Source of the DNA: a virus
Virus record (IMG/VR): IMGVR_UViG_3300048929_000756
Location: 1 to 21,385 of that record
Reading direction: 5' to 3' (one strand)
DNA: 21,385 bases
A program made the translations under genes and the position numbers. The notes beneath the pieces are model-generated. The model worked only from the letters and a program-made list of their open reading frames with translations, did no database searches and was not told the DNA's origin. Position 1 is the first letter of the stretch; each line of letters opens with the position of its first letter. Positions 6,381 to 21,385 of this stretch are shown one piece after another.

Positions 6381-7343
6381 TCAGGACGAGGTGTTGTCGA
6401 ACACGCCGCCGCTCGACTTTTCGTTGCGGGCGACGAGGGCGTATTCGGCCAGGATCTGCCGCCGCTCCGAATCGCCGGTCTTGGCGAGCGGGAGCGAGAT
6501 CATGTTGCGGCCGTTGAGGTAGGCGACCGCCCACTTGTCCATTTCCAGCACAAGCACGTCGCGCATGCGCTGGAAGCGGTTGGCGACGACCTTGAGCTTG
6601 CCGAAATCGGATTCGTAGGCATCGACGGACGCCACGATCTTTTTCGACTTCGCCTCCTCGATCGCGGTGGCGCGGCCGGTGAAGGTCGAGAACACCTGCT
6701 TGTTGAAGGCGCCGGTCATGATCACGCCGGGCTTGCCGCCGTTGGTCCAGATCGAGGACAACACGCTCTTCAGCCGCGCTTCGGTGAAGGCGATCGGAGC
6801 GCCGTCGGTGCGCGTGCCTGACCCGTCAACCGGCGACGGATCGGCAGGCGAACCGGCCGTGCTCTTCGACGTATTCGAGGCAATCCACGACAGGATCGAG
6901 GCCGTCTGCCGCGGCGTCGTCGAGTTGCCGGCGACCTTGGCCTGGTTGGTGCCGGCCAGGATGGTCTCGAGATCGCGCCGCAGCTCGAGGCCCTTGAGCA
7001 TCTCCTGATAGGCGAGCTCGTTGTCGCGGCCGGCGTGTTCGACCGCCTGCTGTGTGCCCGAGACCTGCGCGACCTTGTAGGAAATCTGGCACAAATTGCC
7101 GAGGCGCACGGTCGGCGTGGTCGTGTTGTTGGTGGGATCGTCGCCTTCGAGCTGGGCGTTCGAAGGATTGGCGGCCGCGAGCGCCTGCGTCTGCCATTCA
7201 TGATTGACGGCGGTCGCTTTTTCTTTCTCGGCGCCGCTCATGAACGGGGTATCGGTCGGGTCGATGCGATAGATCACGTCGGAGAGATCTTCGCGGTTGC
7301 CGACCGCGGTATAGGTCGTGAAGGTGGAAGCTGGCAAAGCCAT
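6381..7343 (-). CDS. major capsid protein (DUF5309 / SU10-type)
   Basis: This encodes 320 aa. The N-terminal signature 'TYTAVGNREDLSDVIYRIDP' and 'TDTPFMSGA' is followed by 'HEWQTQALAAANPSNAQLEG', the pattern of DUF5309 (SU10 major capsid, HK97-like fold). Further matches to the family layout are 'ELAYQEMLKGLELRRDLE', the 'GVIMTGAFNKQVFSTF' block and the C-terminal 'EYALVARNEKSSGGVFD'. Length is typical. AAGGAA lies 8 nt before the ATG. It is separated from upstream genes by a 382-nt noncoding stretch with a promoter/terminator-like element, so it may be transcribed under its own control. No scaffold gene is recognisable upstream. Confidence 0.92.
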   Translation of the reverse strand: MALPASTFTTYTAVGNREDLSDVIYRIDPTDTPFMSGAEKEKATAVNHEWQTQALAAANPSNAQLEGDDPTNNTTTPTVRLGNLCQISYKVAQVSGTQQAVEHAGRDNELAYQEMLKGLELRRDLETILAGTNQAKVAGNSTTPRQTASILSWIASNTSKSTAGSPADPSPVDGSGTRTDGAPIAFTEARLKSVLSSIWTNGGKPGVIMTGAFNKQVFSTFTGRATAIEEAKSKKIVASVDAYESDFGKLKVVANRFQRMRDVLVLEMDKWAVAYLNGRNMISLPLAKTGDSERRQILAEYALVARNEKSSGGVFDNTSS

Positions 7344-7700: not shown

Positions 7701-7729
7701 TTATGAAGGTGATTTGCCCGACGGGTCAA
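7701..7729 (-). promoter_or_regulatory. promoter-like box, element copy 1
   Basis: Minus-strand TTGACC (7729-7724), 17-nt spacer, TCATAA (7706-7701). The spacer CGTCGGGCAAATCACCT is nearly identical in the two other copies (8959-8987, 15480-15508). The TGA stop of the upstream gene lies inside the -35 box. Predicted RNA would run straight into the hairpin at 7641-7675. Confidence 0.5.
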
Positions 7730-8385
7730 GCGAGCTGAACGATGCGGCTTGCCAATCGCCTGATATCCGGCGAGGCATCGACCGCCACATCGGGATCAGA
7801 GCTTGCAGCCAGATCAGGAAAAAGCCGGGCCAGATCTTCCGATGATTGCGGCGAGCCCGCACCATATTTCAAAACACCGCCCGAGCTCTGTGCGCCGGGG
7901 AAGGGATTACCAATCTCGTCGGTGGTTGGCCTGAACGATTCAAAAAATTTGAGAACAGGGTTGGCACTGGCCGGGGGAATGTTTTGGTCTCCGGGATTGT
8001 TGCCTGGCGATAAAGCCGGCATTTCGCTTCCCGGAAATGGCTGACCGAATTCGTCTGTTCTCGGCCGAAAATCGAGAACGCTTTTCATCGGAATAGGACC
8101 AAAGCCGTAAGTAGCACCGCCTCCCGGCGTCCCAAATCCAAACCCCGTGGCACCCCCACTCGTTCCGACATTGGGCCCGACTTTTTTTAGCGGACCGAGC
8201 GTGCCGCCAACGGACAGGCCGGTGAGCAGGCCCTCGAGATCGTTGGAGTAGCCGCCGGAGACGCCCAGCCTGGACGAACCAACGTAAGCTTGAGGATAAA
8301 GATTTCCATCGCTATCGACGTACAATCCGCCTCCAAAACCATACGGACTCCCGTAGGTGAATCCGCCGTAGGATCCCTGCTTCAT
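7726..8385 (-). CDS. Gly-rich protein with duplicated FRPxTDExG motif
   Basis: This 219-aa protein starts with a Tyr/Gly-rich domain (FGGGLYVDSDGNLYPQAYVG, then GVSGGYSNDLEGLLTG), continues with a Gly-rich linker, then two copies of one motif: FRPRTDEFGQPFPG (106-119) and FRPTTDEIGNPFPG (151-164). The C-terminus ends in a short helix-like stretch (SPDIRRLASRIVQLA). I do not recognise a family. GGAGA lies 5 nt before the ATG, and the ATG overlaps the membrane-protein stop as ATGA, so the two are coupled. Placement between portal and capsid allows a virion-internal or accessory role; neither is shown. Confidence 0.75.
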   Translation of the reverse strand: MKQGSYGGFTYGSPYGFGGGLYVDSDGNLYPQAYVGSSRLGVSGGYSNDLEGLLTGLSVGGTLGPLKKVGPNVGTSGGATGFGFGTPGGGATYGFGPIPMKSVLDFRPRTDEFGQPFPGSEMPALSPGNNPGDQNIPPASANPVLKFFESFRPTTDEIGNPFPGAQSSGGVLKYGAGSPQSSEDLARLFPDLAASSDPDVAVDASPDIRRLASRIVQLA

Positions 8386-8762
8386 GATTTCTCCGTGTTA
8401 TCCGGCACCGCCCGACGGCTGCAATTTTCCTGGTAAATGACCCAGGACCTGAGCGTGAGAAGCAAATGGATTAGAGACCCACCCAAAACAAGCCAGCCGC
8501 CAAAAACTTCTCCTGCCGAAAAAAGCGACAGCGAGAAACAAAGCCCCGCGATAGTGAATGCCCAGAGAGCGTTCATAAAGTTTTTTTGGATCGGCAAGGG
8601 CGTCAAAGGACTCAGTCCCAGTCCGCCGAGAACGAATTTTTCGGTGAGGCCCTCTGTCAGCTCCTCCGGAATGAGCTTCTTCAAGGCAGAGTCAGCGATC
8701 TGATATTGACAGATGGCGTAGATAAAGATGGCCACACACGGAAAGGCAAACAGAACGGTCAA
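8382..8762 (-). CDS. three-helix membrane protein
   Basis: This encodes 126 aa from a TTG start at 8762. Membrane segments lie near residues 2-21, 63-83 and 88-108, with a charged loop between the first two (EELTEGLTEKF). The TTG is chosen because AGGAGG (8773-8768) sits 5 nt upstream; the longer frame starts at another TTG (8858) without such a site and adds a 32-residue non-hydrophobic lead. The stop overlaps the next ATG. No family recognised; a moron membrane protein (e.g. exclusion) or lysis accessory are possibilities from the size only. Confidence 0.65.
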   Translation of the reverse strand: MTVLFAFPCVAIFIYAICQYQIADSALKKLIPEELTEGLTEKFVLGGLGLSPLTPLPIQKNFMNALWAFTIAGLCFSLSLFSAGEVFGGWLVLGGSLIHLLLTLRSWVIYQENCSRRAVPDNTEKS

Positions 8763-8901
8763 ACTGGCCTCCTCGGGGCTTTTCGAGCCTGGATGGACCG
8801 CCAGTTTACGCCAAGGTTGTATCTCGGCAACATCGCGGCAGCGGAAATTCGATGTCAACGGAAGCCGCTGGCCTATATCGTGGGACGTCGCAGCGCATAA
8901 A

Positions 8902-8958: not shown

Positions 8959-8987
8959 TTATGAAGGCGATTTGCCCGACGTGTCAA
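8959..8987 (-). promoter_or_regulatory. promoter-like box, element copy 2
   Basis: Minus-strand TTGACA (8987-8982), 17-nt spacer CGTCGGGCAAATCGCCT, TCATAA (8964-8959). The -35 is a perfect consensus. It lies just upstream of the hairpin at 8902-8936, giving a possible ~50-nt terminated RNA or a leader with attenuator for the 8762 gene. Confidence 0.55.
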
Positions 8988-10666: not shown

Positions 10667-11436
10667 TCGAAGTTCCTCAAGATGTTTGCCAGCAGAGCTG
10701 CACGATGCGCCGCCGAAAGGTTAGATGGATTATCGCGTGCTACACCTTCATAAATTTTCTGGAATGCAGCAACCGATCGTGAGGTAATCCCGGCATCTTT
10801 GAGTTTGGATATTATGTCAGCGGTCGCTTCGGTGGAAGCCCGGCTCGATGCCGCTAGCCCTTGCGTGAAACCAGCAAGTTCACCAAACCTCTGCCGCGTT
10901 ATTCCCTCTGGCAAGGTACCTTCCGCATCGCTGATGGCCTGCCTAGCGGCACTACTTGCGGCAGCTCTGCCGCCATTCAGGAGCGCTGGGTTGGCGAGCC
11001 CATCAGCAACCGCACCCGCTCCAAACAAGCCGAGCGCCTGACCACCCGCAATTGCGAGCGGCGGCGCCAATGCTGAACCGAGACCGAGCGCTCCCACAAT
11101 CTTTGCCGCTGTGGGATGGTTTTGCACAAGATCTACTACCCCTTCCGATTCTGCGCGTTCAGGAGCGGCGAACTGATTGAAGAAATCGGCGAATGACGAA
11201 GGTGAACCACTTCCGATCGGCTCGACCGGCGGTGTGGGTTGGAGCGGACTTTGTGGCGGTGTTTGTGTTTGTTGGGGCTGCGCCGACAAGCCTTGTATCG
11301 GTGTCGCTTGCGCTTGCCCGTTCTGCGCAGGCGGACCCACGCCGCCCGCGGCAAACGGATCGTGCTCCACCGGCACGAGCGAGACGTTTTCAAAATCCGG
11401 CTGGTGATCCACCGGCACCAGCGAGTAGTCATCCAT
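10663..11436 (-). CDS. Pro/Gln-rich protein with duplicated SLVPV motif
   Basis: This encodes 257 aa. The N-terminus carries an imperfect duplication: YSLVPVDHQPDF (4-15) and VSLVPVEHDPF (18-28). Residues ~30-80 are Pro/Gln-rich and probably disordered, then SSFADFFNQFAA (80-91), a Gly/Ala-rich hydrophobic stretch (110-147) that could insert in a membrane, and a helical C-terminus ending AALLANILRNFE. A membrane-active virion-internal (ejection-type) protein is one reading; I recognise no family. The ATG lies 8 nt inside the portal-C end, so it is coupled to the portal. Confidence 0.75.
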   Translation of the reverse strand: MDDYSLVPVDHQPDFENVSLVPVEHDPFAAGGVGPPAQNGQAQATPIQGLSAQPQQTQTPPQSPLQPTPPVEPIGSGSPSSFADFFNQFAAPERAESEGVVDLVQNHPTAAKIVGALGLGSALAPPLAIAGGQALGLFGAGAVADGLANPALLNGGRAAASSAARQAISDAEGTLPEGITRQRFGELAGFTQGLAASSRASTEATADIISKLKDAGITSRSVAAFQKIYEGVARDNPSNLSAAHRAALLANILRNFE

Positions 11437-13087
11437 GGTGGACGACCAGCAGATACTTGCCGGAACGTGCGGGATCGTCGACGTAGTGGTGGCCGTCCTT
11501 GGCTCTACGTGCGCCGGGCGGATAGGTGCGCCGCGTCTTCTCCTGCGCGACCGCAGCTTTCAGATGCGCGTCGAGCACCGAGAGTTTTGCGTCGAGATCG
11601 GCCTTGATCTTCGCCAACGCGATCTCGCTTTGCGTCTTCACCTGAAGGTGGATTGCCTCGTTCTGCGCCTTTTGTGCCTGAAGCTGCGCCTGATGCGCCG
11701 AGGTGGCGGCATCGATCTGCGCTCTCGCCTGCGCGGCGAGCAGTTTCGGATCGGGCGGTGGTGATGGCGGCGCCGGCGGCGGATGCAGCAGCTGCCCGCT
11801 CTCGGGGTTGATCGCGGAGGGGTCGTTGAAGAACTGGCCCGCGTTCTTGTGGCCCATGATCCGCGTCAGTTCCGAGGCGGTATTGTAGAGCTGGAGATCG
11901 CCGACCAGGTTGGCCTTGCCGGCGGAGAGCAGCTCCTTCTGAACGTTGCCGATCGCCATGGTCTGCGCGAACTGCTGCGCCTTGCCGCCGGTGCCGAGCC
12001 CGACATTGACGGTCATATCGTCGCGCGTCTTCCAGTTGCGCGGATCGACATTGACCCAGGCATTGCGCAATCGCACGGTCTGGATCTGCTGGCCGTGCTT
12101 GCGGATCGTGCCATGCAGCAGCGCAAAGATGTCGCGTACACCCTCCGCCATGATCCGCGCGACCAGCTTGATGCGCATTTGCGAGGCCGAGAACACCTGC
12201 GCCACCGCGGTCGCCGACTGGTTCTGTAGCGCGTTGGCGTCCAACCCTTGCGTTTGCCTGGCAAGGCCAGTGCGGGTCTCGAGCTCAGCGTCGAGATATT
12301 GCAGCATCGGGTAGATCGAAGTCGTGATGTCCGGCACCGCCTGCCAGTTCAGCCCGCCCGGCGTCTTGGTGCGCACCACCCCGCCCGGTCGCGAAACCAG
12401 GAGATCGTCGAGCGTGTTGGGACCGGCATTGCTTTCGGCGACCTCGACGCGCGGATTGTTGTGCAAGTAAAGATTATCCAGCGCGCCGCGCTTGAGCGCG
12501 GTCTTTTCCCGCTGGAGCGGCATCACGAGATCAGCGATCGATCGGCCGAAGAAGCGATGCGTCACCGGCACCGGCGTCGTCGCCGCGAACGGGATCACGT
12601 CGAACGGCGTGATGCAAACCTCGCCATTCTGGCGCAGGATCTCGCCCTCGTCGCCGCCGGTGATGACCTGATAGAGGCTGGCGCGGCCATTGCCTTCGTA
12701 ATCCATCCGCACATAGTGCTCGGTGATGCGCACCAGCCGCGCGGCCTTGTTGACGTCGCCGCCGCCGGTACCGAAATGCTCTTCCACCGTATCGCGCGCC
12801 AGCGTCTCGATTTCGGAAGTGCCGGTGTAATCACCGAGCGAGCGAATCTGCTCGGCGTCGAAGCCTTCGTTGATCAGCTGGCTTTCGGTCTTGGTGACCA
12901 CTTCATGAAAACAGTAATTGCAATCGCGGATCGAACGCGCGCCGCGCTCGATGCCGAACTCTTCCGGCGGCACACCGAGCACGCGGGCCTGCGCGAGCTT
13001 CCGGGTGGTGACGATGGTGACGTCATGCGTCACGGTGGGCGCGGGAAGTTCTGACTGCGGGGGTGGCGCAAGCAAGGGAGTAGCCAT
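11429..13087 (-). CDS. portal protein, C-terminal half (P22-type)
   Basis: This encodes 552 aa, starting just before the core block 'THDVTIVTTRKLAQARVLGV', 'PPEEFGIERGARSIRD' and continuing with 'MDYEGNGRASLYQVI', 'HRFFGRSIADLVMPLQREKT' and 'NPRVEV', all typical of P22-type portals. A Pro-rich linker (HPPPAPPSPPPDP) leads to a Gln/Ala-rich helix that may be the barrel-like end, then DGHHYVDDPARSGKYL. Together with the 191-aa half upstream it totals 743 aa, close to P22 portal (725 aa), so neither half is complete alone. AGGAGG (13109-13104) lies 16 nt before ATG 13087; an in-frame CTG at 13096 would be better spaced. In the assembled portal this ring threads DNA. Confidence 0.85.
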   Translation of the reverse strand: MATPLLAPPPQSELPAPTVTHDVTIVTTRKLAQARVLGVPPEEFGIERGARSIRDCNYCFHEVVTKTESQLINEGFDAEQIRSLGDYTGTSEIETLARDTVEEHFGTGGGDVNKAARLVRITEHYVRMDYEGNGRASLYQVITGGDEGEILRQNGEVCITPFDVIPFAATTPVPVTHRFFGRSIADLVMPLQREKTALKRGALDNLYLHNNPRVEVAESNAGPNTLDDLLVSRPGGVVRTKTPGGLNWQAVPDITTSIYPMLQYLDAELETRTGLARQTQGLDANALQNQSATAVAQVFSASQMRIKLVARIMAEGVRDIFALLHGTIRKHGQQIQTVRLRNAWVNVDPRNWKTRDDMTVNVGLGTGGKAQQFAQTMAIGNVQKELLSAGKANLVGDLQLYNTASELTRIMGHKNAGQFFNDPSAINPESGQLLHPPPAPPSPPPDPKLLAAQARAQIDAATSAHQAQLQAQKAQNEAIHLQVKTQSEIALAKIKADLDAKLSVLDAHLKAAVAQEKTRRTYPPGARRAKDGHHYVDDPARSGKYLLVVHHG

Positions 13088-13213: not shown

Positions 13214-14041
13214 TCAGCTGGCGTTGAGACGCCGCAGATATTCGAGATAGGCACCGTTGAGCGACAGCGATCCGTCGGGTGATGGTTGTAACGGCAGCGT
13301 CGTGAACGGCGAGCCTTGCGATGGGTCGTAGGTTCGCCGAGCTAGAAATCGCGTCGGCCCGTTGTCCGCAACATTCGATGCTTGATCCGGTTGCAGCGGC
13401 GGCGAAGTCATATCAGCGGCAAGCGGAGAGTTCGGGCCTGCGCTCAGCAATCGAGAGAAGAGAGACGCCGGCGCATTCGCATCAAGAGACGTAAAGGCTG
13501 ACACTGACGGCGATGCCGCTTGCGTCAGGATCGGTGCAGCGCCAACTGGGGGCTCGGAGCGTCGCGGATTTTGCGACGGGCTGGGAGACGGCGAAAGATC
13601 CAAGCCCGGGGTTTCTGGAGGGTTCGGCGCTTGCAACGTGATCGGACGTTCGTGAACGGCATTTGGGTCCGACGGCTCCCGAATAATTCTATCTCTATCA
13701 GTTGGATCCCTATCGCCCGCAACCTGATTGAGTTGATCGATAGTATCATCGACCAACCGGACGACGGAATCCAGGATATGACTGGGATCGTCCGCATATT
13801 GCTTTGAAGTGAGAACGGAAGCCTTGAAGTTCTTTAGATCCCGAACCGTACTGTCATATTCGGGTGCGTTGACCGGCGGCTTTCGCGGCCCATCCGGAGT
13901 GAACGATCCCGGTCCATTCAAATAAAAATCGATAACGTCATTTGCTTGAGCCATAAGTTCGGCTCTATCGGCTTCCGTTATCTTTGCGAGCTGCCCCACG
14001 AAACCTGGCGGCGGCAAGGGACTGCTTTCGATAGTTGCCAT
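13214..14041 (-). CDS. largely disordered Pro-rich protein inside portal gap
   Basis: This encodes 275 aa. Residues ~15-115 look helical (ADRAELMAQANDVIDFYL, then VRLVDDTIDQLNQVAG), followed by a long Pro/Ser/Asp-rich disordered part and a short C-terminal helix (LNGAYLEYLRRLNAS). Near the end it carries PTRFLARR, which resembles PPVRVLSRR in the M23 protein and PPIRRLA in the gene at 18229-18796, followed in all three by a Pro-rich stretch and a terminal helix. I recognise no family. It separates the portal halves. The ATG at 14041 has only a weak purine run (GGGGG) upstream. Confidence 0.7.
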   Translation of the reverse strand: MATIESSPLPPPGFVGQLAKITEADRAELMAQANDVIDFYLNGPGSFTPDGPRKPPVNAPEYDSTVRDLKNFKASVLTSKQYADDPSHILDSVVRLVDDTIDQLNQVAGDRDPTDRDRIIREPSDPNAVHERPITLQAPNPPETPGLDLSPSPSPSQNPRRSEPPVGAAPILTQAASPSVSAFTSLDANAPASLFSRLLSAGPNSPLAADMTSPPLQPDQASNVADNGPTRFLARRTYDPSQGSPFTTLPLQPSPDGSLSLNGAYLEYLRRLNAS

Positions 14042-14190: not shown

Positions 14191-14643
14191 TTATAGCGGC
14201 TGCCCCAAGCCTCTCCTATCGTCCCGCCAATCCGGTGACAGGAGACGGAACTTCAGAAAGAGCGAGCCTATGCGCACGTTTTCAACAGTCATCCCGTCCC
14301 TGACTTTTTCGCCTTTAAATATGGGCTCTTGATGCAATGCTTCGCGTAGATCGAGGACTGTCACGTCGCGACCATACTCGAAGTAGCAGCAGTCGGGGTT
14401 GTGGCTACGCAGGTGCAACCTGACAATCCGGGACATCGCGCGGCGCAAATCAATATCGACTTGCAGCCCCAGCTCTTTCAGTTCTACGTGACACATCTGA
14501 TCGAACTGACAAATCGACAAGCTTGCGTCTTGGCCTGACTGGGTATCGGCACCGATTTGGACGACGTAATCAGCTGCACGCGCAACGCGGCCCGATAGAA
14601 GTAGGCCCACGACGGCGAGTACGGTGGTGAATTGAGTCTTCAT
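14191..14643 (-). CDS. exported Cys-containing protein inside portal gap
   Basis: This encodes 150 aa. MKTQFTTVLAVVGLLLSGRV then ARA-AD is a clear Sec signal peptide with cleavage after residue 23. The mature part has C45, C51 and a C85-C86 pair, plus beta/alpha segments with 'MSRIVRLHLRSHNPDCCYF'. I know no family. ATG 14643 is preferred over the longer frame because the signal peptide starts there, with GGGA about 7 nt upstream. A promoter-like sequence lies ~90 nt upstream, so it looks like a self-contained moron gene. Periplasmic location is inferred. Confidence 0.7.
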   Translation of the reverse strand: MKTQFTTVLAVVGLLLSGRVARAADYVVQIGADTQSGQDASLSICQFDQMCHVELKELGLQVDIDLRRAMSRIVRLHLRSHNPDCCYFEYGRDVTVLDLREALHQEPIFKGEKVRDGMTVENVRIGSLFLKFRLLSPDWRDDRRGLGQPL

Positions 14644-14728
14644 GCAAATTCCCATCACTCCAAGCTCATGGTTTCGCCGGCGGACACGACCCTGCGCGAC
14701 TGACCATGCAACCTCAGGGCGCCTGTCG

Positions 14729-14758
14729 ATGATAGAACATAACAGGAACGACAATCAA
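14729..14758 (-). promoter_or_regulatory. putative promoter of exported-protein gene
   Basis: Minus-strand TTGATT (14758-14753), 18-nt spacer, TATCAT (14734-14729). The DNA here is AT-richer than its surroundings and lies between the portal-N stop and the start at 14643. It would give independent expression of the inserted genes. Confidence 0.4.
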
Positions 14759-14812: not shown

Positions 14813-15388
14813 TCAACTCGTCGCCTCGGTTTGCTCCGGCGCCTCGCCGATCTCATGCACAGTGTGCGCTACGATCTTTATCGCACCTTCGGATTCCGCG
14901 ACGGCCTGCGCGATCAGCGCGAACTGGTCGTCGGTGAGATCGTAATAGGTCTCGCGCTCTTCCTCCTCGCGCTCTTCCCACCACACTTTCACGATGCCGA
15001 CCTTGGAGAGCAGCGCGTCCTTGATGAAGGAATAGAGGATCATGAAGCCGCCGTTCTGCTGCATGAAGACATGATTGACGTAATCGGTTTCCTGCGCCGC
15101 AGCCGCTTCATCCTCCGGGCCGACCGGTTCGAAACGGACGACTTCGTCCGATCCCGCAAACACGTCCATCAGATGCGGCATCAAGCCTTCGATGGTGTCG
15201 GCGACATCGGTCGAGACCGCGCGCGAGCGGCCGTCCTGCGCCGGCATGTCCTTCTGCATGTGACCGAAATAGTAATCCATCGCGTCAGCCCGTTCTTCCG
15301 CAAGCTCGGCTGCGGAAACAGCGGCAAGCGCGTCGGATTTCTCGGCAGACAGCATTGCCTTGAGGTCGGTAGTGGACATTTTCGGCAT
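14813..15388 (-). CDS. portal protein, N-terminal half (P22-type)
   Basis: This encodes 191 aa. 'RADAMDYYFGHMQKDMPAQD' (read as DAMDYYFGHMQKDMP), 'GRSRAVSTDVADTIEGLMPHL', 'DVFAGSDEVVRFEPVGPEDE' and 'DYVNHVFMQQNGGFMILYSFIKDALL' blocks are the N-terminal half of P22-type portals, ending soon after 'VKVWWEE'. The stop comes in the acidic variable linker (GEAPEQTEATS), after which an intact portal would continue into the block that starts the gene at 13087. GAGAAG (15401-15396) lies 7 nt before ATG 15388; ATG 15379 is a second option. No frameshift or internal stop. It must partner the other half to be functional. Confidence 0.85.
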   Translation of the reverse strand: MPKMSTTDLKAMLSAEKSDALAAVSAAELAEERADAMDYYFGHMQKDMPAQDGRSRAVSTDVADTIEGLMPHLMDVFAGSDEVVRFEPVGPEDEAAAAQETDYVNHVFMQQNGGFMILYSFIKDALLSKVGIVKVWWEEREEEERETYYDLTDDQFALIAQAVAESEGAIKIVAHTVHEIGEAPEQTEATS

Positions 15389-15422
15389 GAAGGATCTTCT
15401 CATCTGAAGGGATGATCGAACG

Positions 15423-15458
15423 AAAAAAGCCCGCGTGGCTTTTCGGCCTGCGGGCTTT
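15423..15458 (-). terminator. terminator-like hairpin, element copy 3
   Basis: Minus-strand stem AAAGCCCGC/GCGGGCTTT (15450-15458 with 15426-15434) is followed by TTTTTT. It is a well-formed intrinsic-terminator shape between the small membrane gene (stop 15561) and portal-N (start 15388). Confidence 0.75.
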
Positions 15459-15479
15459 CGGATTTTGGCAAGGATGGAC

Positions 15480-15508
15480 TTATGGCGGTGATTTGCCCGA
15501 CGTGTCAA
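15480..15508 (-). promoter_or_regulatory. promoter-like box, element copy 3
   Basis: Minus-strand TTGACA (15508-15503), 17-nt spacer CGTCGGGCAAATCACCG, CCATAA (15485-15480). It has the same geometry as copies 1 and 2 and leads into the hairpin at 15423-15458, then portal-N. Confidence 0.55.
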
Positions 15509-15560: not shown

Positions 15561-15728
15561 CTAAGATAATAACCGGTGGACCGCAAGCCACGCCAGAAGA
15601 GCGAGGCCAAAAGTCGCCACGATCGTGCCGGCCTGCGCGACGCGCGGCGTCGGGACCAGATTGACGGAGAGGATACCGCAGGCCAAGGCAACGAGACCGG
15701 CGGCGGCGAAGGTGCGATCGAGGTCCAT
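15561..15728 (-). CDS. 55-aa two-helix membrane protein
   Basis: MDLDRTFAAAGLVALACGIL opens the first helix, VPTPRV forms the turn, and TIVATFGLALLAWLAVHRLL is the second helix. Start chosen at 15728 because AGGAG (15738-15734) lies 5 nt upstream; the longer frame from 15764 would overlap the divergent DUF2235 start. The gap to that start is 34 nt. Function unknown; holin-like, accessory or immunity roles are all possible for so small a membrane protein. Confidence 0.65.
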   Translation of the reverse strand: MDLDRTFAAAGLVALACGILSVNLVPTPRVAQAGTIVATFGLALLAWLAVHRLLS

Positions 15729-15762
15729 CGGATCTCCTGATGGGTTGAAGGCGGGGGAAAGC

Positions 15763-16944
15763 ATGGCGGACGTATCAGTGGCAGCGTCGAAGAAGCGCCT
15801 GGCGCTCTATCTCGACGGCACCTGGAATCAGGTCAGCGACAACACCAATGTCTGGCGTTTCCGCGCGCTGTTCTCGCCCTCAAGCGCCGACGGCTGCGAG
15901 CAGCGCGCCTATTATTCGACCGGGCTTGGCACCAAGTTCGGCGAGAAGATCAGCGGCGGGCTGTTCGGCGCCGGCATCGATACGGCGATCACCAGCGCCT
16001 ATGAATGGTTGATCGACAATTACGCGCCGGGCGACGAGATCTTCATCTTCGGGTTCAGCCGCGGCGCCTATACCGCACGAAGCCTCTCCGGCTTCATCTC
16101 GAAATGCGGGCTCTTGCAAAGCGGCGCGCCGCTCGGCGTCAATCAGCTGTTCACGCGTTACCGGCAGGCAGGCCTGCGGACCATCCGCGAATTGATGGCG
16201 GCGCAAGCGGACGGGCAGACCGCCGATTTCAGCTTCGAGGAAAAATGGATGCTGGAATACGCGCTGGCCGTGCCGGTCAAATTCATCGGCGTGTTCGACA
16301 CCGTGGGCGAGCTCGGCGTGCCCTTCCCCTGGTGGCGGGAGTTGTTCGGGTCGGCCTATCAATTCCTCAACACCGGCCTGCGCCAGAACAACGAGTTCGC
16401 CTTTCACGCGATGGCGATCGACGAGCATCGCAAGGCGTTCGCGCCGACGCTGTGGAGCAACCAGGGCGCGACGAACGCCGCCCATCGGCCGATCGAGCGC
16501 ACCGAACAGCGATGGTTCATCGGCGCGCACGCCAATGTCGGCGGCGGATATTTCAACGACGCCCTGCCCCAGCTTCCGTTCAAGTGGCTGGAGCGCAAGG
16601 CGGCCAGCCTCGGGCTGTCGTTTCGCGGCGACTTCGACGTCGATCCCGCCGCAAGTACGGCTGCGGTCGCTGATTCCTACACGACGTTCATGTACGGGTT
16701 CTATCGGCTCTACACGCTCAATCGCCCTTATTATCGGCCGATCGGCGTTCTTCCCAAAAGCGAAGGCGACGGCGTCATCAATATCAACGAGACGATCGAT
16801 GCGTCGGTGTTCGAGCGCTGGCGCAGCGACCGCAGCTACCGGCCGCCGGGACTGCAAAACTGGGCAACGGCAAGATCCGTCGACCCCGCAAAGATCATCG
16901 CCTCCGTGCGCGCCGATGATCCGGCCGTGGTGGTCGCGGATTAG
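15763..16944 (+). CDS. DUF2235 alpha/beta-hydrolase-like protein
   Basis: This 393-aa protein has the DUF2235 layout: 'LALYLDGTWNQVSDNTNV' at the start, the nucleophile elbow GFSRGAYTARSLSGF (Ser99), 'FIGVFDTVGELGVP' with the acid residue, 'EHRKAFAPTLW' and 'RWFIGAHANVGGGYF' with the His. All triad-like residues are present. Relatives include Tle1-type phospholipase effectors and many proteins of unknown substrate. GGGGGA lies ~5 nt before ATG 15763; the frame opens further upstream but without such a site. It is the only large plus-strand gene here, against the phage operon, which marks it as cargo. No signal peptide or membrane segment seen. Confidence 0.88.
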   Translation: MADVSVAASKKRLALYLDGTWNQVSDNTNVWRFRALFSPSSADGCEQRAYYSTGLGTKFGEKISGGLFGAGIDTAITSAYEWLIDNYAPGDEIFIFGFSRGAYTARSLSGFISKCGLLQSGAPLGVNQLFTRYRQAGLRTIRELMAAQADGQTADFSFEEKWMLEYALAVPVKFIGVFDTVGELGVPFPWWRELFGSAYQFLNTGLRQNNEFAFHAMAIDEHRKAFAPTLWSNQGATNAAHRPIERTEQRWFIGAHANVGGGYFNDALPQLPFKWLERKAASLGLSFRGDFDVDPAASTAAVADSYTTFMYGFYRLYTLNRPYYRPIGVLPKSEGDGVININETIDASVFERWRSDRSYRPPGLQNWATARSVDPAKIIASVRADDPAVVVAD

Positions 16945-16977: not shown

Positions 16978-17778
16978 TTAAGGAGAATGATTTCCCTTTT
17001 GCGGCCTGGTCGTGCCCGGCGGCGCGTTGCCGACGATGGCGCGCAATTCGACCAGCGCCCGCTCGAGCGCCTCGGCGCCCTTGTCGCTGGCTTTGATTTC
17101 GGGGCTGGGGTCGAACAGGATGTTGGCGATGTTCTTGGCGTCGATGAACAGATAGTCCCAATAAGCTCTCGTGTCCTGGTCAGCCCCGAACAACTTTTGC
17201 AGGTTCGTCGGCATCGGATCGTCGCCTTCCATTTTCATGAAAAAGCGCGAGCAATTCCTCAGGACGACGTAAGTCAGGCTTCCGTCGAGCGTCATGTAGA
17301 ATTCGGAGAGCGCGCCCTTGTACATCAGCACGCGGTCGTTCTCGACGGTGGTGGTCATGACAAAGGCGGTGACGATGCCATCGCGCATCGACTGATTGAC
17401 GGCCGTGATCCACTTGTGCCGGGACAGGCTGCGGAAATGCGAAGCCACGTAACCGCAAGCAAAGCCGAAAATGGCGATCACCACGGTATAGATGCCGCTG
17501 TTGACGACGATCGTGACGCCGGGTTTCAGCGTGGTCCATTTGTCGTAGGTCGAAAGCGGCCGCAGGAAATCGGCGAGGTCAAATCCGAAAAAGACCAGAA
17601 CGCCGTAGGCCAGGAGATGCAAAATCAGCGCGACGAGGATCGCCAGCCCGACCTCGCCGATCGCATTGCTGCGGATGACCTCGCGCGAAAATCTTTCGGT
17701 AAAGTACAGGCCGACGAAAAAGAAGACGCCTGGAAACAGCAGCGCTGTGATCAGTACGGTGGTCCACGCGATTGACAT
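16978..17778 (-). CDS. three-helix membrane protein (DUF6338-like?)
   Basis: This encodes 266 aa. Membrane segments lie near residues 6-25, 43-65 and 88-112, followed by a ~150-residue soluble domain ('NQSMRDGIVTAFVMTTTVEN', 'VLMYKGALSEFYMTLDGSLTYVVL', 'YLFIDAKNIANILFD') likely in the cytoplasm. The 'LLFPGVFFF' opening and overall build recall DUF6338 membrane proteins, a tentative call made from memory. It is convergent with the DUF2235 gene, and 22 nt after the 59-aa gene, without an obvious ribosome site, so it may be coupled to that gene. Cargo (moron) status is inferred. Confidence 0.7.
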   Translation of the reverse strand: MSIAWTTVLITALLFPGVFFFVGLYFTERFSREVIRSNAIGEVGLAILVALILHLLAYGVLVFFGFDLADFLRPLSTYDKWTTLKPGVTIVVNSGIYTVVIAIFGFACGYVASHFRSLSRHKWITAVNQSMRDGIVTAFVMTTTVENDRVLMYKGALSEFYMTLDGSLTYVVLRNCSRFFMKMEGDDPMPTNLQKLFGADQDTRAYWDYLFIDAKNIANILFDPSPEIKASDKGAEALERALVELRAIVGNAPPGTTRPQKGNHSP

Positions 17779-18228: not shown

Positions 18229-18796
18229 CTAAAGATCAAGTGCGGCCTTCCAGCGCCGGACGAGCTCATTATCTTCATCCTCGGCAGGCGACGGATCGGG
18301 GGTCTCGAAGATCGAAGGCCGCACCGGATAATCCCGAATCGGCTTGCCCGAGAAGATGCCGAGCAACGGCGGCGGGGCTGACGCGCCGGTCGGTGCGGGT
18401 GACGATAGGTTGGCAAGCCGACGAATCGGCGGGACGTCATCATTCGTCGTCGCCGGCGTCGCGCCACTCGAAATCTCCGATCGTTGGCCGCTATCCGGCC
18501 CCCAACGGAACGGAGGGAAAATATTGCGAAGGCGGCACGGGCCCGCCATGTGCGGCGTCAGGCGTGTGACTGTCTGAGAATTGCGGGTCGTCGCCATAGA
18601 TCTTGTGCCAGTATTCGGGATCGGCCTGATAGGCTGCCATCGCTTTTTGAAAATCTCCGAGATGAAGATCTCCGTTGATGCGTTGTGCGAAGGCTTCGTC
18701 GTTGTTTATAGTATCCGCTCCAAGGTGGTAATATCCGAGTTGCCTTCCGGTCAGGCCAGCAGCGAGTCTGAGAACAGATTGAGGTAACCACCACAT
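18229..18796 (-). pseudogene. frame-shifted gene with M23-type C-terminal tail
   Basis: Two overlapping frames make one gene. Frame A (18796 to a TAG at 18493) has AGGAG 6 nt before its ATG and encodes 101 aa: MWWLPQSVLRLAAGL, then 'FQKAMAAYQADPEYWHKIYG' and a Pro-rich end. Frame B (open to 18229) carries the tail SGKPIRDYPVRPSIF ... EDNELVRRW, nearly identical to the end of the M23 protein. Joining them needs a +1 shift; CCC followed by T at 18517-18514 is a suitable +1 slip site, and the join would yield 188 aa. It may be programmed frameshifting, a genuine mutation, or a sequencing error. The N-terminal part is not recognised. Confidence 0.6.
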
Positions 18797-18858
18797 ATAA
18801 TGCTCCTACGGGGTGAGATTATGGAGCCGGGCTGCGTCGTTACGGAAGGAACGCGAGC

Positions 18859-19026
18859 ATGACTTCGATATTTGTAAAATTTTCCATCGTGCTTGTTGGC
18901 CTAGCTCTCGTCAGCGCCTGGGTCTTTCCCCCGGCGCGCATCCGGCACGACGTGATCTATATTGGAATAGCAGTCCTGGCGGCGGTGCTCTTTGCAGCCA
19001 TCGATCATTTTCAACTGATGCCGTGA
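18859..19026 (+). CDS. 55-aa two-helix membrane protein (plus strand)
   Basis: MTSIFVKFSIVLVGLALVSA begins the first helix, FPPARIRHDV is the turn and IYIGIAVLAAVLFAAIDHF the second. AAGGA (18846-18850) lies 8 nt before the ATG. It points against the terminase operon and divergent to the tail-sharing gene (62 nt between starts). Same length and architecture as the protein at 15561-15728. Role unknown; holin-like or accessory membrane protein are options. Confidence 0.6.
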   Translation: MTSIFVKFSIVLVGLALVSAWVFPPARIRHDVIYIGIAVLAAVLFAAIDHFQLMP

Positions 19027-19078
19027 TTGCGCGACGCCGTGTCGGTGCGCCGTCAAAGGCCAGCAGCAAGATACTGGC

Positions 19079-20365
19079 TCATACCCACCCCTGCTCCTTG
19101 TACTGGATCACCCGGTTAAAGCTTGAGGTCCGGCCGGGCTGCTCGTAACACACCGCCATCAGGCCGAGCGCGTCGGCGGCATGTGACGACCAGTCGTGCT
19201 CGGGGCCGAGCCCGACCTGGCGGGTATCATCGCGCTTCTCGTGGTAGAAACCGAGCGCCTCGCGGCCACTTTCCGTGGTCGCTTCGTTGAACCAGAGTTG
19301 CGGCGACAGCCGGCGCAACGCCTCGATCCGCATCATCGCCGCGCCCCTGCCTTGGTTCTTCACCGGCGGCTCGACCGCAAAGCCGGCGTCACGCCAGTGT
19401 TCGGCATAGGTCTTGCCGGTGACCGCACTCGCATTCATCCCGTCATGCGGCAGGTAGTTGATTGTCTTGTCGTAGCCGCGCTCGCGCATCCAGTTGACGT
19501 GAAAGGCGAGCACCTGGCCCGAGGATTCGTAATAATCGAGCACGCGAATTTCCTGCCCGGCCCACTGCACGATCCAGATCGTATAGGCATCGGCCTGAGC
19601 GCCCGCGCCACCAATGTCGTGAAAAGCACGCAGCGGCAGTAGCGGATCGGCGGCGACCCTGCCGATGCGTCCCTGCGCTCGCGCCTGGGCCAGCAGCGGT
19701 GCAAAGTAAGCGCCTTCGAACGCTCTCACATAGTCCCCTTCCCAGATGTGGGCATAGCGATCGGGATAGAGCGCGAGATCGGTCCTGCGCTCGTCGTCCA
19801 GCACAGCCGGGAACCAGGGATTGTCGCGCCAGTTGGCGTGAACGAGGATCGTCCCTTCCGGCCTTCTGGCGCGAAAGAAGTCGTCGATCGCATCGCTCTT
19901 GCGCCTGGGATTCCACGATGCCCACAGCTCCGAGCCCGGCGCGCGAATGGTCGGGCGCAACAGCGCCAGCGAGCGAGCGCTCAGGGTTTGCGCCTCGTCG
20001 ACCCACGCGATGCGAAACCCTTCCAGAGATTTGATGGCCTCGGCGGTGTGATCGGCCATTCCCCGGAAGATGACAACGCCGTCGCCGGGCGTCGCGATGC
20101 GGTCGCTGTAGATCTTGAAACGATGCGCGAGGCCGAGCTTGTCGATCTTGCTTTCGATCAGCCGCTTGGAAGATTGCGCCAGCGTCTTCTGCGACTCGCG
20201 AATACAGACGGCCGATGTGCCGCGCTCGGCTTCGCAGAGTTCGACCAGCATCTCACCGAAGAAGTGCGACTTTCCCGAACCTCTCCCTCCGAACGCAGCC
20301 TTGTAGCGCGACGGCGCCAGCAGCGGTTCAAAGATTTTTGCGGTCGGGATTTTCAGTGTCGACAT
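19079..20365 (-). CDS. terminase large subunit (PBSX/XtmB type)
   Basis: This encodes 428 aa. Walker A GGRGSGKS is at residues 26-33 and Walker B 'IAWVDEAQTL' at 119-128, with the 'KSLEGFRIAWVDEA' arrangement of PBSX-type terminases. The nuclease half contains 'AFHDIGGAGAQADAYTIWI' with acidic residues and the late 'DWSSHAADALGLM' Asp. It would power DNA translocation through the portal and cut concatemers. Length is normal for the family. It follows the M23 gene by 27 nt. No small terminase is recognisable in the window; it may lie to the right. Confidence 0.93.
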   Translation of the reverse strand: MSTLKIPTAKIFEPLLAPSRYKAAFGGRGSGKSHFFGEMLVELCEAERGTSAVCIRESQKTLAQSSKRLIESKIDKLGLAHRFKIYSDRIATPGDGVVIFRGMADHTAEAIKSLEGFRIAWVDEAQTLSARSLALLRPTIRAPGSELWASWNPRRKSDAIDDFFRARRPEGTILVHANWRDNPWFPAVLDDERRTDLALYPDRYAHIWEGDYVRAFEGAYFAPLLAQARAQGRIGRVAADPLLPLRAFHDIGGAGAQADAYTIWIVQWAGQEIRVLDYYESSGQVLAFHVNWMRERGYDKTINYLPHDGMNASAVTGKTYAEHWRDAGFAVEPPVKNQGRGAAMMRIEALRRLSPQLWFNEATTESGREALGFYHEKRDDTRQVGLGPEHDWSSHAADALGLMAVCYEQPGRTSSFNRVIQYKEQGWV

Positions 20366-20392
20366 GTTCGGGCCATGGGATGGCGCATCTGC

Positions 20393-21385
20393 TCACGCAT
20401 CCACCCACCGCATCCAGCGCTGGAACAGCTCATTGTCGTCGGGCGAGGGTCGATCATCGGCCGTTGCGAAGATCGACGGCCGCACAGGATAGTCCCGCAT
20501 CGGTTTGCCACTGACGATGCCGAGCAAGGGCGGCGCCGCTTCAGGTGCTGGCGTCGGCGCGTCGCCGGCTGCGGGTGAGAGATCTGCGCGGCGCGAGAGA
20601 ACGCGAACCGGCGGATCGTCCGCCTCTGATCGTTTGCCTGGATCTGGCAGCTGTGGAGCCGGAGCACTGATGTTGCCGAGCGCCCCGGGAGCCGTCAGGT
20701 CCCAGCCATTAAATCGATCGGCAAAACTGGCGGGATCGTCGGAAGCAGTCGACCCATTGGGAAGCGGCGCAGAACCCCACTTTCCGAAGCGATCAGCGAA
20801 TGGATTTGGATCGGATACTGATTTACCGAAAGGACTGAAGAAGGGCTGAGCCGGCGTGTCAGGCGAAGAAATGCCGGAAGCCGAAGTGGCAGTGCCACCG
20901 GACATGATTTCTGCGGCGCGCTGTGATTGATCGAGATCGGCCGGCGGAGGCAGAACGTAATTCTGATATGTCGCGGGATCATAAGTATTGGTTTGATCCG
21001 GATGGAGTCCGATTGGACCGCCATCCCTCGGATGTGCAGCGTCGTATACTTTCCCGGCTTCTTTCGTGATTACGGAGTAATGCAGATGGGGACCAGTGGA
21101 CTCGCCGGTATTTCCGACCCGACCGATCATGTCGCCTTTCCAAAGGCGCTGGCCGGGCGTGACCTGATCGTCGCCTCGCATATGCGCGTAAAGACTATGG
21201 TCGCCCGTATCGTTCTTGACGATGACAGTGTTTCCATATCCGCCCTCGTTTTTGCCGGAATACACGACAACACCGGACGCAGCACTCGGGATGGGAGTCC
21301 CTTCGGGCGCGCTAAAATCCAACCCGGGATGAAGCTCGGGCTGATTGGTCTTTGGGTGAATACGCCAGCCGTAGCGCGAGCTCAT
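20393..21385 (-). CDS. M23 metallopeptidase with disordered tail (5' end cut)
   Basis: This encodes at least 330 aa and runs off the right edge; M23 domains usually have residues before SSRYGWRIHP, so the ATG at the edge may be internal. Zinc-site motifs are intact: H19-x3-D23 (LHPGLD), H68 (YAHM) and H100-x-H102 (HLHYSV). After ~130 residues comes a long Pro/Ser/Asp-rich part with a duplicated FADRF motif (NPFADRFGKW, ASFADRFNGW) and then a tail shared with the gene at 18229-18796 (SGKPMRDYPVRPSIF ... DDNELFQRW). It would cleave peptidoglycan cross-links; use during entry (virion lysin) or lysis is not settled. Confidence 0.88.
   Translation of the reverse strand: MSSRYGWRIHPKTNQPELHPGLDFSAPEGTPIPSAASGVVVYSGKNEGGYGNTVIVKNDTGDHSLYAHMRGDDQVTPGQRLWKGDMIGRVGNTGESTGPHLHYSVITKEAGKVYDAAHPRDGGPIGLHPDQTNTYDPATYQNYVLPPPADLDQSQRAAEIMSGGTATSASGISSPDTPAQPFFSPFGKSVSDPNPFADRFGKWGSAPLPNGSTASDDPASFADRFNGWDLTAPGALGNISAPAPQLPDPGKRSEADDPPVRVLSRRADLSPAAGDAPTPAPEAAPPLLGIVSGKPMRDYPVRPSIFATADDRPSPDDNELFQRWMRWVDA

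Follow-up and report, generated by a model that had tools for sequence, protein, structure and literature searches.

A C-terminal module shared by unrelated proteins

The viral record IMGVR_UViG_3300048929_000756, analyzed here over all its 21,385 nt and called the window below, carries a podophage gene set, in which Pfam and PHROG scans recognized a terminase, an SU10-type portal, a capsid, virion proteins, and a tail fiber. The nearest named phage, as judged by the C-terminal part of the portal (78% identity), is Bradyrhizobium phage ppBeUSDA76-2 (OP596614; also written ppUSDA76Be-2), which the available part of its description classes as a podophage with observed virions (mBio 2023, PMC10127595). 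This work concerns a C-terminal module, termed the tail, that is found on two otherwise different proteins of the window, and the protein family defined by it. The effector candidates, candidate immunity genes, terminase, portal, and capsid genes of the window are all on the minus strand. The first tail (20396-20533; 46 amino acids PPLLGIVSGKPMRDYPVRPSIF...DDNELFQRWMRWVDA) ends an effector candidate that consists of an M23 peptidase domain (PF01551, 1.3e-27), a linker, and the tail and is encoded at 20393-21385, its 5' end being lost at the contig end. The second copy (18232-18372; 47 amino acids) likewise lies where the first-pass annotation had placed it. That annotation was right in recognizing one shared module and drew it too short, since the homology covers 85 columns with 54% identity and starts at an upstream "DxPxRxL" box; the box PPVRVLSRR of the M23 protein (20588-20614, coordinates derived from the open reading frame, ORF) lies within it. 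At the DNA level, the best stretch between both copies is 81% identical over 85 nt, so that they do not represent a recent duplication. As far as tested, no relationship exists between the N-terminal parts, with Peptidase_M23 in one protein and no Pfam match above the cut-off in the other.

The second tail had been assigned to a single gene at 18229-18796, which could not be upheld: the N-terminal domain ORF (18491-18796) and the tail-bearing ORF (18229-18597) are in different frames, and the gene is thus interrupted in this record. In the relative L102:1497-2297, an 18491-type N-terminal domain (4e-10) and the tail are found within one frame (L numbers denote loci and G numbers genomes; G001 is the genome of L004, and L018 stems from the genome of L239). 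For a third effector candidate (13214-14041), a weaker form of the tail had been claimed; its upstream box, PTRFLARR, is indeed present, but the end is another module, SLNGAYLEYLRRL. Relatives of its N-terminal domain do carry the tail with its PLGI motif, namely, in L029 and in L018 and L107, where a further end module follows.

Extent of the tail family

Related loci were collected with the portal N-terminal gene, for which 263 relatives were found and the best 80 loci kept. An iterated tail profile (E ≤ 1e-3) matched 72 ORFs in 114 sources, overlapping loci being counted, and in a rerun 73 of 17,309 ORFs from six-frame translation of related loci matched, as compared with none of the reversed and none of the shuffled sequences; chance or composition as the origin of the tail was ruled out by these controls. 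The consensus runs from the box VRxLxRR through DRFGxWxSS..AP..PYQP and PLGI[VF][ST]G[EKQ]PMPDYPxPPxI[FW]GxPD to an acidic end with Trp, and the end holds Trp and basic residues after the acidic stretch. In the viral set (15,755 ORFs), the DRFGxW part alone was detected in 50 ORFs and in none of the reversed ones, all 50 being on the portal strand. Some proteins have alternative end modules at the position of the tail, of the types GGLLGxxxxxLRxN, SLNDAYLEYRRRLDA, and SIEKWIASLAxVDPDD.

A profile of 37 rows matched at least 101 of 265 Bradyrhizobium genomes (E ≤ 0.001), and a first model of 4 rows matched 19; both counts are lower bounds because only the best ~20 (about 19) candidates were scored per genome. 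An order-wide sample of 297 genomes gave three matches, all within the Bradyrhizobium set. Direct searches were less productive. The window tail had only chance-level matches (E of 1 or worse) among named phages, no relatives were found in viral contigs scanned with the M23 protein or the two window tails, and a scan of genome contigs returned one locus, L004. Three other tailed proteins gave peptidase-domain matches or none against phages, one gave peptidase-domain matches only against plasmids, and viral scans with the effector families yielded few loci, mostly already in the set.

Diversity of the N-terminal parts

A total of 155 tail ORFs was reduced to 108 by removing identical ends and to 80 by requiring an N-terminal part of at least 70 residues. 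At E ≤ 1e-4, these 80 parts separate into 14 groups that do not match one another; seven are single proteins, and the largest have 27 (M23), 23, 11 (class X), and 6 members (the type of the 13214 gene). The 23-member group mixes AHH-type nucleases with the type of the window gene at 7726 and seems to be joined through linker similarity. As judged by sequence, the tail is one divergent module, joined close to the C-terminal end to a large variety of unrelated N-terminal parts. The profile search suggested by the first-pass annotation has thus uncovered a large family with M23, AHH-type, lysozyme-like, and other N-terminal parts, and the possibility raised there, that the tail is only one recent duplication, is contradicted by 73 ORFs, 14 N-terminal groups, and the DNA divergence. 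Its description also holds across the whole phage clade: unrelated proteins encoded around terminase and portal carry the same C-terminal module behind linkers that look disordered.

Database matches for the N-terminal parts are sparse. In a Pfam scan of 55 tailed proteins (E ≤ 0.01), only Peptidase_M23 (13 proteins), AHH (1), and HNH_repeat (1) were recognized, and the labels lysozyme/SLT-like, NlpC-like, HELLHP, and X reflect our own motif readings rather than database matches. The best AHH match had an E value of 0.0032; in another scan, one of two AHH-class proteins scored 15.2 bits (cut-off, 22.3) and the other had no match. In an alignment of 20 AHH-type rows from 15 distinct genes, one with a cut N-terminal end, the residues HH, N, H, H, and Y are nearly invariant, and the residue before HH varies. 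The Tox-AHH motif is given as [AG]HH, N, H, H, Y, and Imm11 is tabulated as a Tox-AHH partner, in the part of Zhang et al. 2012 that was consulted (PMC3482391). Profile searches of the PDB with the AHH and X families returned nothing useful. In the 99 genome regions described below, the AHH-nuclease type makes up 49 of the 115 tail ORFs, and 34 are unclassed.

Immunity-like genes beside the tailed proteins

One region around a tail match was taken from each of 100 genomes; a tail ORF was found in 99 of these regions and the remaining one was left out, G001 (L004) not being included. Links emerged between the class of a tailed protein and the genes next to it. Imm11 (PF07791) was identified beside the AHH effectors in all five cases scanned (1e-42 to 1e-57), downstream in one and upstream in the others, and it occurs anywhere in the region in 47 of 47 AHH regions, four of which supplied the queries, as opposed to 3 of the 52 others. 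Farther upstream of the one AHH effector scanned for it lies a DUF4261 gene (2.4e-8); DUF4261 has the same distribution over the regions as Imm11, accompanying it and the AHH effector in 47/47 AHH regions (e.g., L148, L149, L147, L157, L158, and L160). The class-X partner is present in 11 of 11 X regions, two of which supplied the queries, and in 5 of 88 others. Another family, with five members of secreted type, has matches to the Ivy lysozyme inhibitor in the two members scanned (4.5e-14 and 2e-8), and all five are located within 900 nt upstream of lysozyme-like effector genes. Within the same distance, a 29-member family is found upstream of an M23 gene in 18 cases and of another class in one, with no classed gene adjacent in 10.

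The window itself appears to hold two candidate effector-immunity pairs. A signal-peptide-like protein (14191-14754), a candidate periplasmic immunity protein, is encoded directly upstream of the 13214 gene; its family occupies this position in 7 of 9 loci with the 13214 type (including one duplicate record), and a contig edge truncates the remaining two. The family is also present in four copies in one region and in eight loci without the 13214 type. The second pair would consist of an effector candidate with a Gly-rich N-terminal domain (7726-8385), whose relatives in L080, L085, and L097 carry the tail, and of an overlapping membrane-protein-like ORF (8382-8858), a candidate immunity gene with 10 relatives, 9 of them adjoining a 7726-type gene.

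These links were also seen in general tests. For upstream families of at least three members, drawn from 747 ORFs of which some are spurious and after exclusion of seven duplicate viral loci, the downstream effector class agreed in 0.83 of within-family pairs versus 0.21 after shuffling (reached in 0 of 2000 shuffles). In the opposite direction, used as a control, agreement was 0.22 versus 0.19; such class tests count related loci repeatedly, and the control shares that relatedness. According to a home-made rule for signal peptides, 26 of 64 tail genes, as compared with 126 of 1635 other ORFs, are preceded within 500 nt by a signal- or transmembrane-like ORF. Partner genes were found for several effector classes, not for every class. 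Taken together, the tailed proteins have the appearance of effectors that are paired with immunity proteins, and it is very probable that they represent an effector-immunity family with a shared C-terminal module. The first-pass annotation had overlooked this effector-like nature and the dedicated immunity genes, with which "cargo" would become "weapon."

We consider it very improbable that these are ordinary phage enzymes, in which case the tail would anchor peptidoglycan hydrolases acting in entry or lysis and the nucleases would be incidental. M23 is the commonest recognized N-terminal domain of the viral set (13/55 by Pfam, 27/80 N-terminal parts), as this explanation would have it, but the AHH-nuclease type accounts for 49 of the 115 tail ORFs in the genome regions, one would not expect lysis enzymes to have immunity genes of their own, as several classes do, and the tail is missing from the active relative OP596614. 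A role in lysis or entry only was rejected on the Imm11 partners and the AHH-type share.

Selection on the tail and its exchange

The ratio of nonsynonymous to synonymous substitution rates (dN/dS) of the tail was 0.17 to 0.59 in all 18 pairs compared, pairs below 62% identity having been dropped, so that the tail is, on this sequence measure, under purifying selection. There are also signs of exchange. Two AHH effectors located 6 kb apart in one genome differ strongly in the synonymous divergence (dS) of their N-terminal domains (1.17) and hardly in that of their tails (0.05). Tails of M23, 7726-type, NlpC-like, and other proteins reach similarities above 0.5 with tails of other N-terminal classes. 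Furthermore, tails of unrelated effectors are more alike within a locus (0.168; 14 pairs) than between loci (0.094; 1891 pairs; permutation p 0.009), a modest effect that was obtained after dropping related pairs, including L073 proteins sharing a long C-terminal stretch.

Such data could mean that the tail plays no role in delivery and is a homology patch or flexible linker end for the exchange of effector domains, or a stabilizing or chaperone-binding end. Both the AHH pair and the likeness of same-locus tails, within the limits of 14 within-locus pairs, agree with this idea, which we regard as rather doubtful, because the tail is constrained at the protein level in the 18 pairs and its residue pattern is conserved across very divergent sequences. 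The existence of alternative end modules at the place of the tail suits a functional end as well.

Placement of the tail genes in the phage loci

Gene order was analyzed in 83 loci with a portal N-terminal gene (portN), comprising the 80 viral loci, the window, OP596614, and L004, a set chosen by portal and with duplicates counted. In the window, portN (14813-15508; PF23899 positions 2-167, 2.3e-55) and the gene of the portal C-terminal part (portC, 11429-13087; positions 172-580, 1.6e-125) lie between the large terminase subunit gene terL (19079-20365; PF04466, 4.9e-25) and the major capsid protein gene (6381-7343; phrog_1328, 1e-101). The terminase is ahead of portN in 65 of the 83 loci, and a tail gene is located between both in 29 of these 65. 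The interval from terL to portN holds 33 of the 64 tail ORFs, and another 7 fall between the two halves of the portal. Of the remainder, 12 precede terL, 9 precede portN on contigs that do not reach terL, and 3 come after; none of the 64 is on the strand opposite to the portal. In the genome regions, which were chosen by tail, terL-derived sequence was present in 81 of 99, and in several regions a shortened terminase continues in frame into other sequence.

All 75 loci with both portal halves (duplicates counted; the window included) encode them as two separate genes, as opposed to three outgroup phages in which the main portal is one ORF of more than 700 amino acids. Where the junction is tight, stop and start overlap in 5 of 6 cases (TGATG, TAATG); elsewhere the gap holds up to 7 kb of cargo. 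Around cargo insertions, duplicated pieces of terL, portN, and the 3' end of portC were noted: in L004, 11129-11428/12747-13046 and 15433-15825/18444-18821 (96-97% identical), and in the window 10029-10361/11434-11768 (86%). This would be consistent with cassette insertion that partly duplicates a structural gene.

Proposed route of delivery

We slightly favor the interpretation that Bradyrhizobium podophages carry a family of polymorphic effectors for which the tail serves as an exchangeable sorting tag at the C-terminus. The effectors would be produced late, together with the head proteins, the tail would dock them to a component of the head under assembly (portal, scaffold, or coat), the next cell would receive them together with the ejected DNA, and the immunity gene would shield the producer and the lysogen. 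Unrelated effectors could use one route because the tail and not the enzyme would carry the address. As to the docking step, the chances that the module attaches effectors to the virion appear about even, particle loading being our best guess. Of the cargo-tag reading in the first-pass annotation, the reused module near terminase and portal was confirmed, while loading into the procapsid is what we infer rather than observe.

A hint in favor of capsid loading comes from L065:5337-6581, a tail-type effector whose end is the C-terminus of the scaffolding protein (4.9e-9) although portN and portC come after it. The location of the tail genes and the precedent of the MuF toxins, encoded in the same packaging module (PMC5576092), point in this direction as well.

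Several observations weigh against the proposed effectors and their route. The scaffold-like end was seen on one full tail-type effector, with a damaged-looking N-terminal part, and on one 48-residue fragment. Capsid or portal genes are associated with the tail across genomes (odds ratio 6.2, p 1e-6; found in 29 of 101 tail genomes versus 10 of 164 others, after 9 weak capsid and 2 weak portal matches were dropped), but 72 of the 101 tail genomes, many of which are draft assemblies, have no strong match to the capsid or portC gene of the clade. The genomes G006 and G192, which share a deletion junction, have no capsid or portC match, yet effector and tail have dN/dS values of 0.25 to 0.28. L163 appears, in our reading of the sequence, to keep endolysin and holin genes as well, which would suit release by lysis too. 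The record of the OP596614 phage contains no tail match, although its virions were observed. As regards the immunity partners, Ivy-like genes occur in five regions without a lysozyme-like tail gene, and the sole lysozyme-like region among the 99 genome regions (L253) is without Ivy. AlphaFold models of the class-X domain and of the M23 protein of the window had mean predicted local distance difference test (pLDDT) values of 44 and 36, respectively, too poor for a fold search. The available part of PMC10127595, the sole paper checked for a virion proteome, does not mention proteomics.

The tail might instead be a signal for a secretion system encoded by the cell, either of type IV, like the XVIPCD domain of Xanthomonas, or of type VI; we judge this improbable. 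Pfam includes an XVIPCD model, but none of the 55 tailed proteins matched it in a scan against 24,736 models. The genes sit in phage clusters, and the type VI sheath gene VipB was found in 14 of 101 tail genomes versus 42 of 164 others (a hand tally; 56/265 overall), on which distribution a type VI signal was rejected. A VirD4/TraG-type coupling protein (T4SS-DNA_transf family) is present in 16 of the 20 tail genomes tested, of 101, but 4 of the 20 lack it, and G006, G158, and G224 lack VipB as well. Arg/Lys ends on some tails also speak for secretion, as does the architecture of the X-Tfes, which according to the portion of the source consulted combine variable N-terminal effectors with a common C-terminal domain (PMC6536674).

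Capsid-less remnants

L163 (G192) has lost most of the terminase, portal, and capsid genes and keeps the effector, an immunity-like gene, and a tail fiber gene. Since tail and effector are kept in such remnants and the tail is absent from OP596614, it would be accessory to particle formation; since it is found under selection in genomes without a capsid, it would work in trans with other phages or outside the capsid. Two further effector-like genes of L163 (10887-11780 and 12270-13238) share the motif MSGNxVKLTNGxRWTAQxFLDHYF..., and the latter is behind a small membrane- or signal-type ORF. A chimera of terL (1-~109) and the scaffold C-terminus with one and the same junction was found in nine genomes (L155, L163, L239, L234, L238, L228, L231, L197, and L212), with dN/dS values of 0.03-0.21 for both halves in 36 pairs, indicating strong purifying selection. 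None of these nine genomes is in the strong capsid or portC sets. Five of them have one chromosomal neighborhood in common, in which G006 and G192 are located; L155 and L163 have a class-X effector, and L239 has a 13214-type effector.

The remnants bear on a bacteriocin-like alternative, in which lysis of the induced cell frees the effectors, the C-terminal module serves for binding to or uptake by neighbors, and the phage cluster provides late expression and lysis. This alternative is less likely than particle loading, while deserving attention ahead of the others. In its favor, the L163 remnant keeps the effector, the immunity-like gene, the tail fiber gene, and a putative endolysin/holin, with effector and tail under purifying selection; the combination of toxin, immunity, and lysis genes is classical for bacteriocins. 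It does not readily explain why the effectors of viral loci sit around terminase and portal; no receptor-binding domain was recognized, and an uptake region at the C-terminus would invert the domain order of colicins.

More speculatively, and with small probability, the remnants could be tamed toxin loci that load toxin into the heads of relatives and thereby poison or mark their progeny, as a toxin satellite or an anti-phage device. The remnant would have retained for this purpose the immunity gene, the tailed effector, and the chimera of terL (~110 residues) and scaffold, of which the scaffold end, together with the tails, would conceivably load the toxin; in P22-type phages, the C-terminal end of the scaffold binds the coat. 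The target heads might, on this rather unlikely scenario, come from an incoming or co-resident related phage.

Relation to known systems

The family shares features with several known systems, the descriptions of which are taken from the available parts of the sources. The MuF toxins (Jamet et al. 2017, PMC5576092) are encoded in the packaging module near the portal of temperate phages, have immunity-like partners, and were proposed to be loaded into the head. Likewise, the present family comprises proteins with a variable toxin-like domain in the DNA-packaging module beside portal and terminase. In MuF toxins, however, the MuF domain is N-terminal and the toxin C-terminal, whereas here the effector is N-terminal and the shared module C-terminal. 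MuF toxins are mostly found in Firmicutes phages, usually with one muf gene per phage and a small partner ORF downstream; in the Bradyrhizobium family the partner is upstream and there are often several effectors per locus. No MuF domain was detected in the 55 tailed proteins (Pfam, E ≤ 0.01). The XVIPCD effectors (PMC6536674) likewise combine variable N-terminal antibacterial effectors with one C-terminal address domain and have immunity proteins, but their domain has about 120 residues, a Gln-rich end, and binds VirD4, and their genes are dispersed, in contrast to the phage clusters and the lack of a match in the present family. As the MuF and XVIPCD domains were tested and found absent, the family would work like both and is a member of neither.

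The Tox-AHH/Imm11 systems (PMC3482391) have the Imm11 partner in common with the AHH class, the motif of which is similar except for the variable residue before HH; their toxin is C-terminal behind a trafficking domain and here is N-terminal. Bxa of Bacteroides (PMC11699363) is also a prophage polymorphic toxin with cognate immunity, but its shared domain is N-terminal and its other domains and host differ. The OP596614 phage belongs to the same podophage clade and has the split portal; it differs in having neither the tail nor cargo between terL and the portal genes. One shared module is joined to many unrelated effector domains, as in polymorphic toxins, and a cognate immunity-like gene was found for several effector classes. 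The family thus appears to belong to the broad kind of polymorphic toxin-immunity systems, in reversed order, and its C-terminal module is named in none of the libraries searched. Among the publications listed in literature searches on Bradyrhizobium prophages, polymorphic toxins, Imm11/AHH, and split portals, none describes the family by title or abstract, bioRxiv and most subscription journals being outside the search.

Head docking as the route of MuF toxins, mostly from Firmicutes phages, is itself a hypothesis according to the part of PMC5576092 consulted. The present work adds an independent family with the reverse order in a Gram-negative, nitrogen-fixing genus. With many effectors, immunity genes dedicated to them, and a short tag suited to reporter fusions, the family makes effector delivery between bacteria by phage particles directly testable. 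If the tag does load cargo, it would be a compact handle for placing proteins in phage heads. Prophages of soybean symbionts are produced spontaneously, as stated in the accessible part of PMC10127595, and the family bears on competition among these symbionts.

Other features of the window

Between terminase and portal, the window contains on the plus strand, antisense to the phage genes, an ORF of 439 amino acids (15625-16944) without a PHROG match, which appears to resemble a DUF2235-type hydrolase. A membrane-protein-like ORF of 266 amino acids at 16978-17778 has one close relative in the set (L035:2657-3430) and is in no pair. The sequence TTGACACGTCGGGCAAAT occurs in three minus-strand copies with at most one mismatch (7712-7729, 8970-8987, and 15491-15508; expected, 0.02) and may be a promoter or an interspersed repeat. 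Sites with its first 17 bases are dense in Bradyrhizobium regions, 73 having been counted in 400 kb at up to two mismatches.

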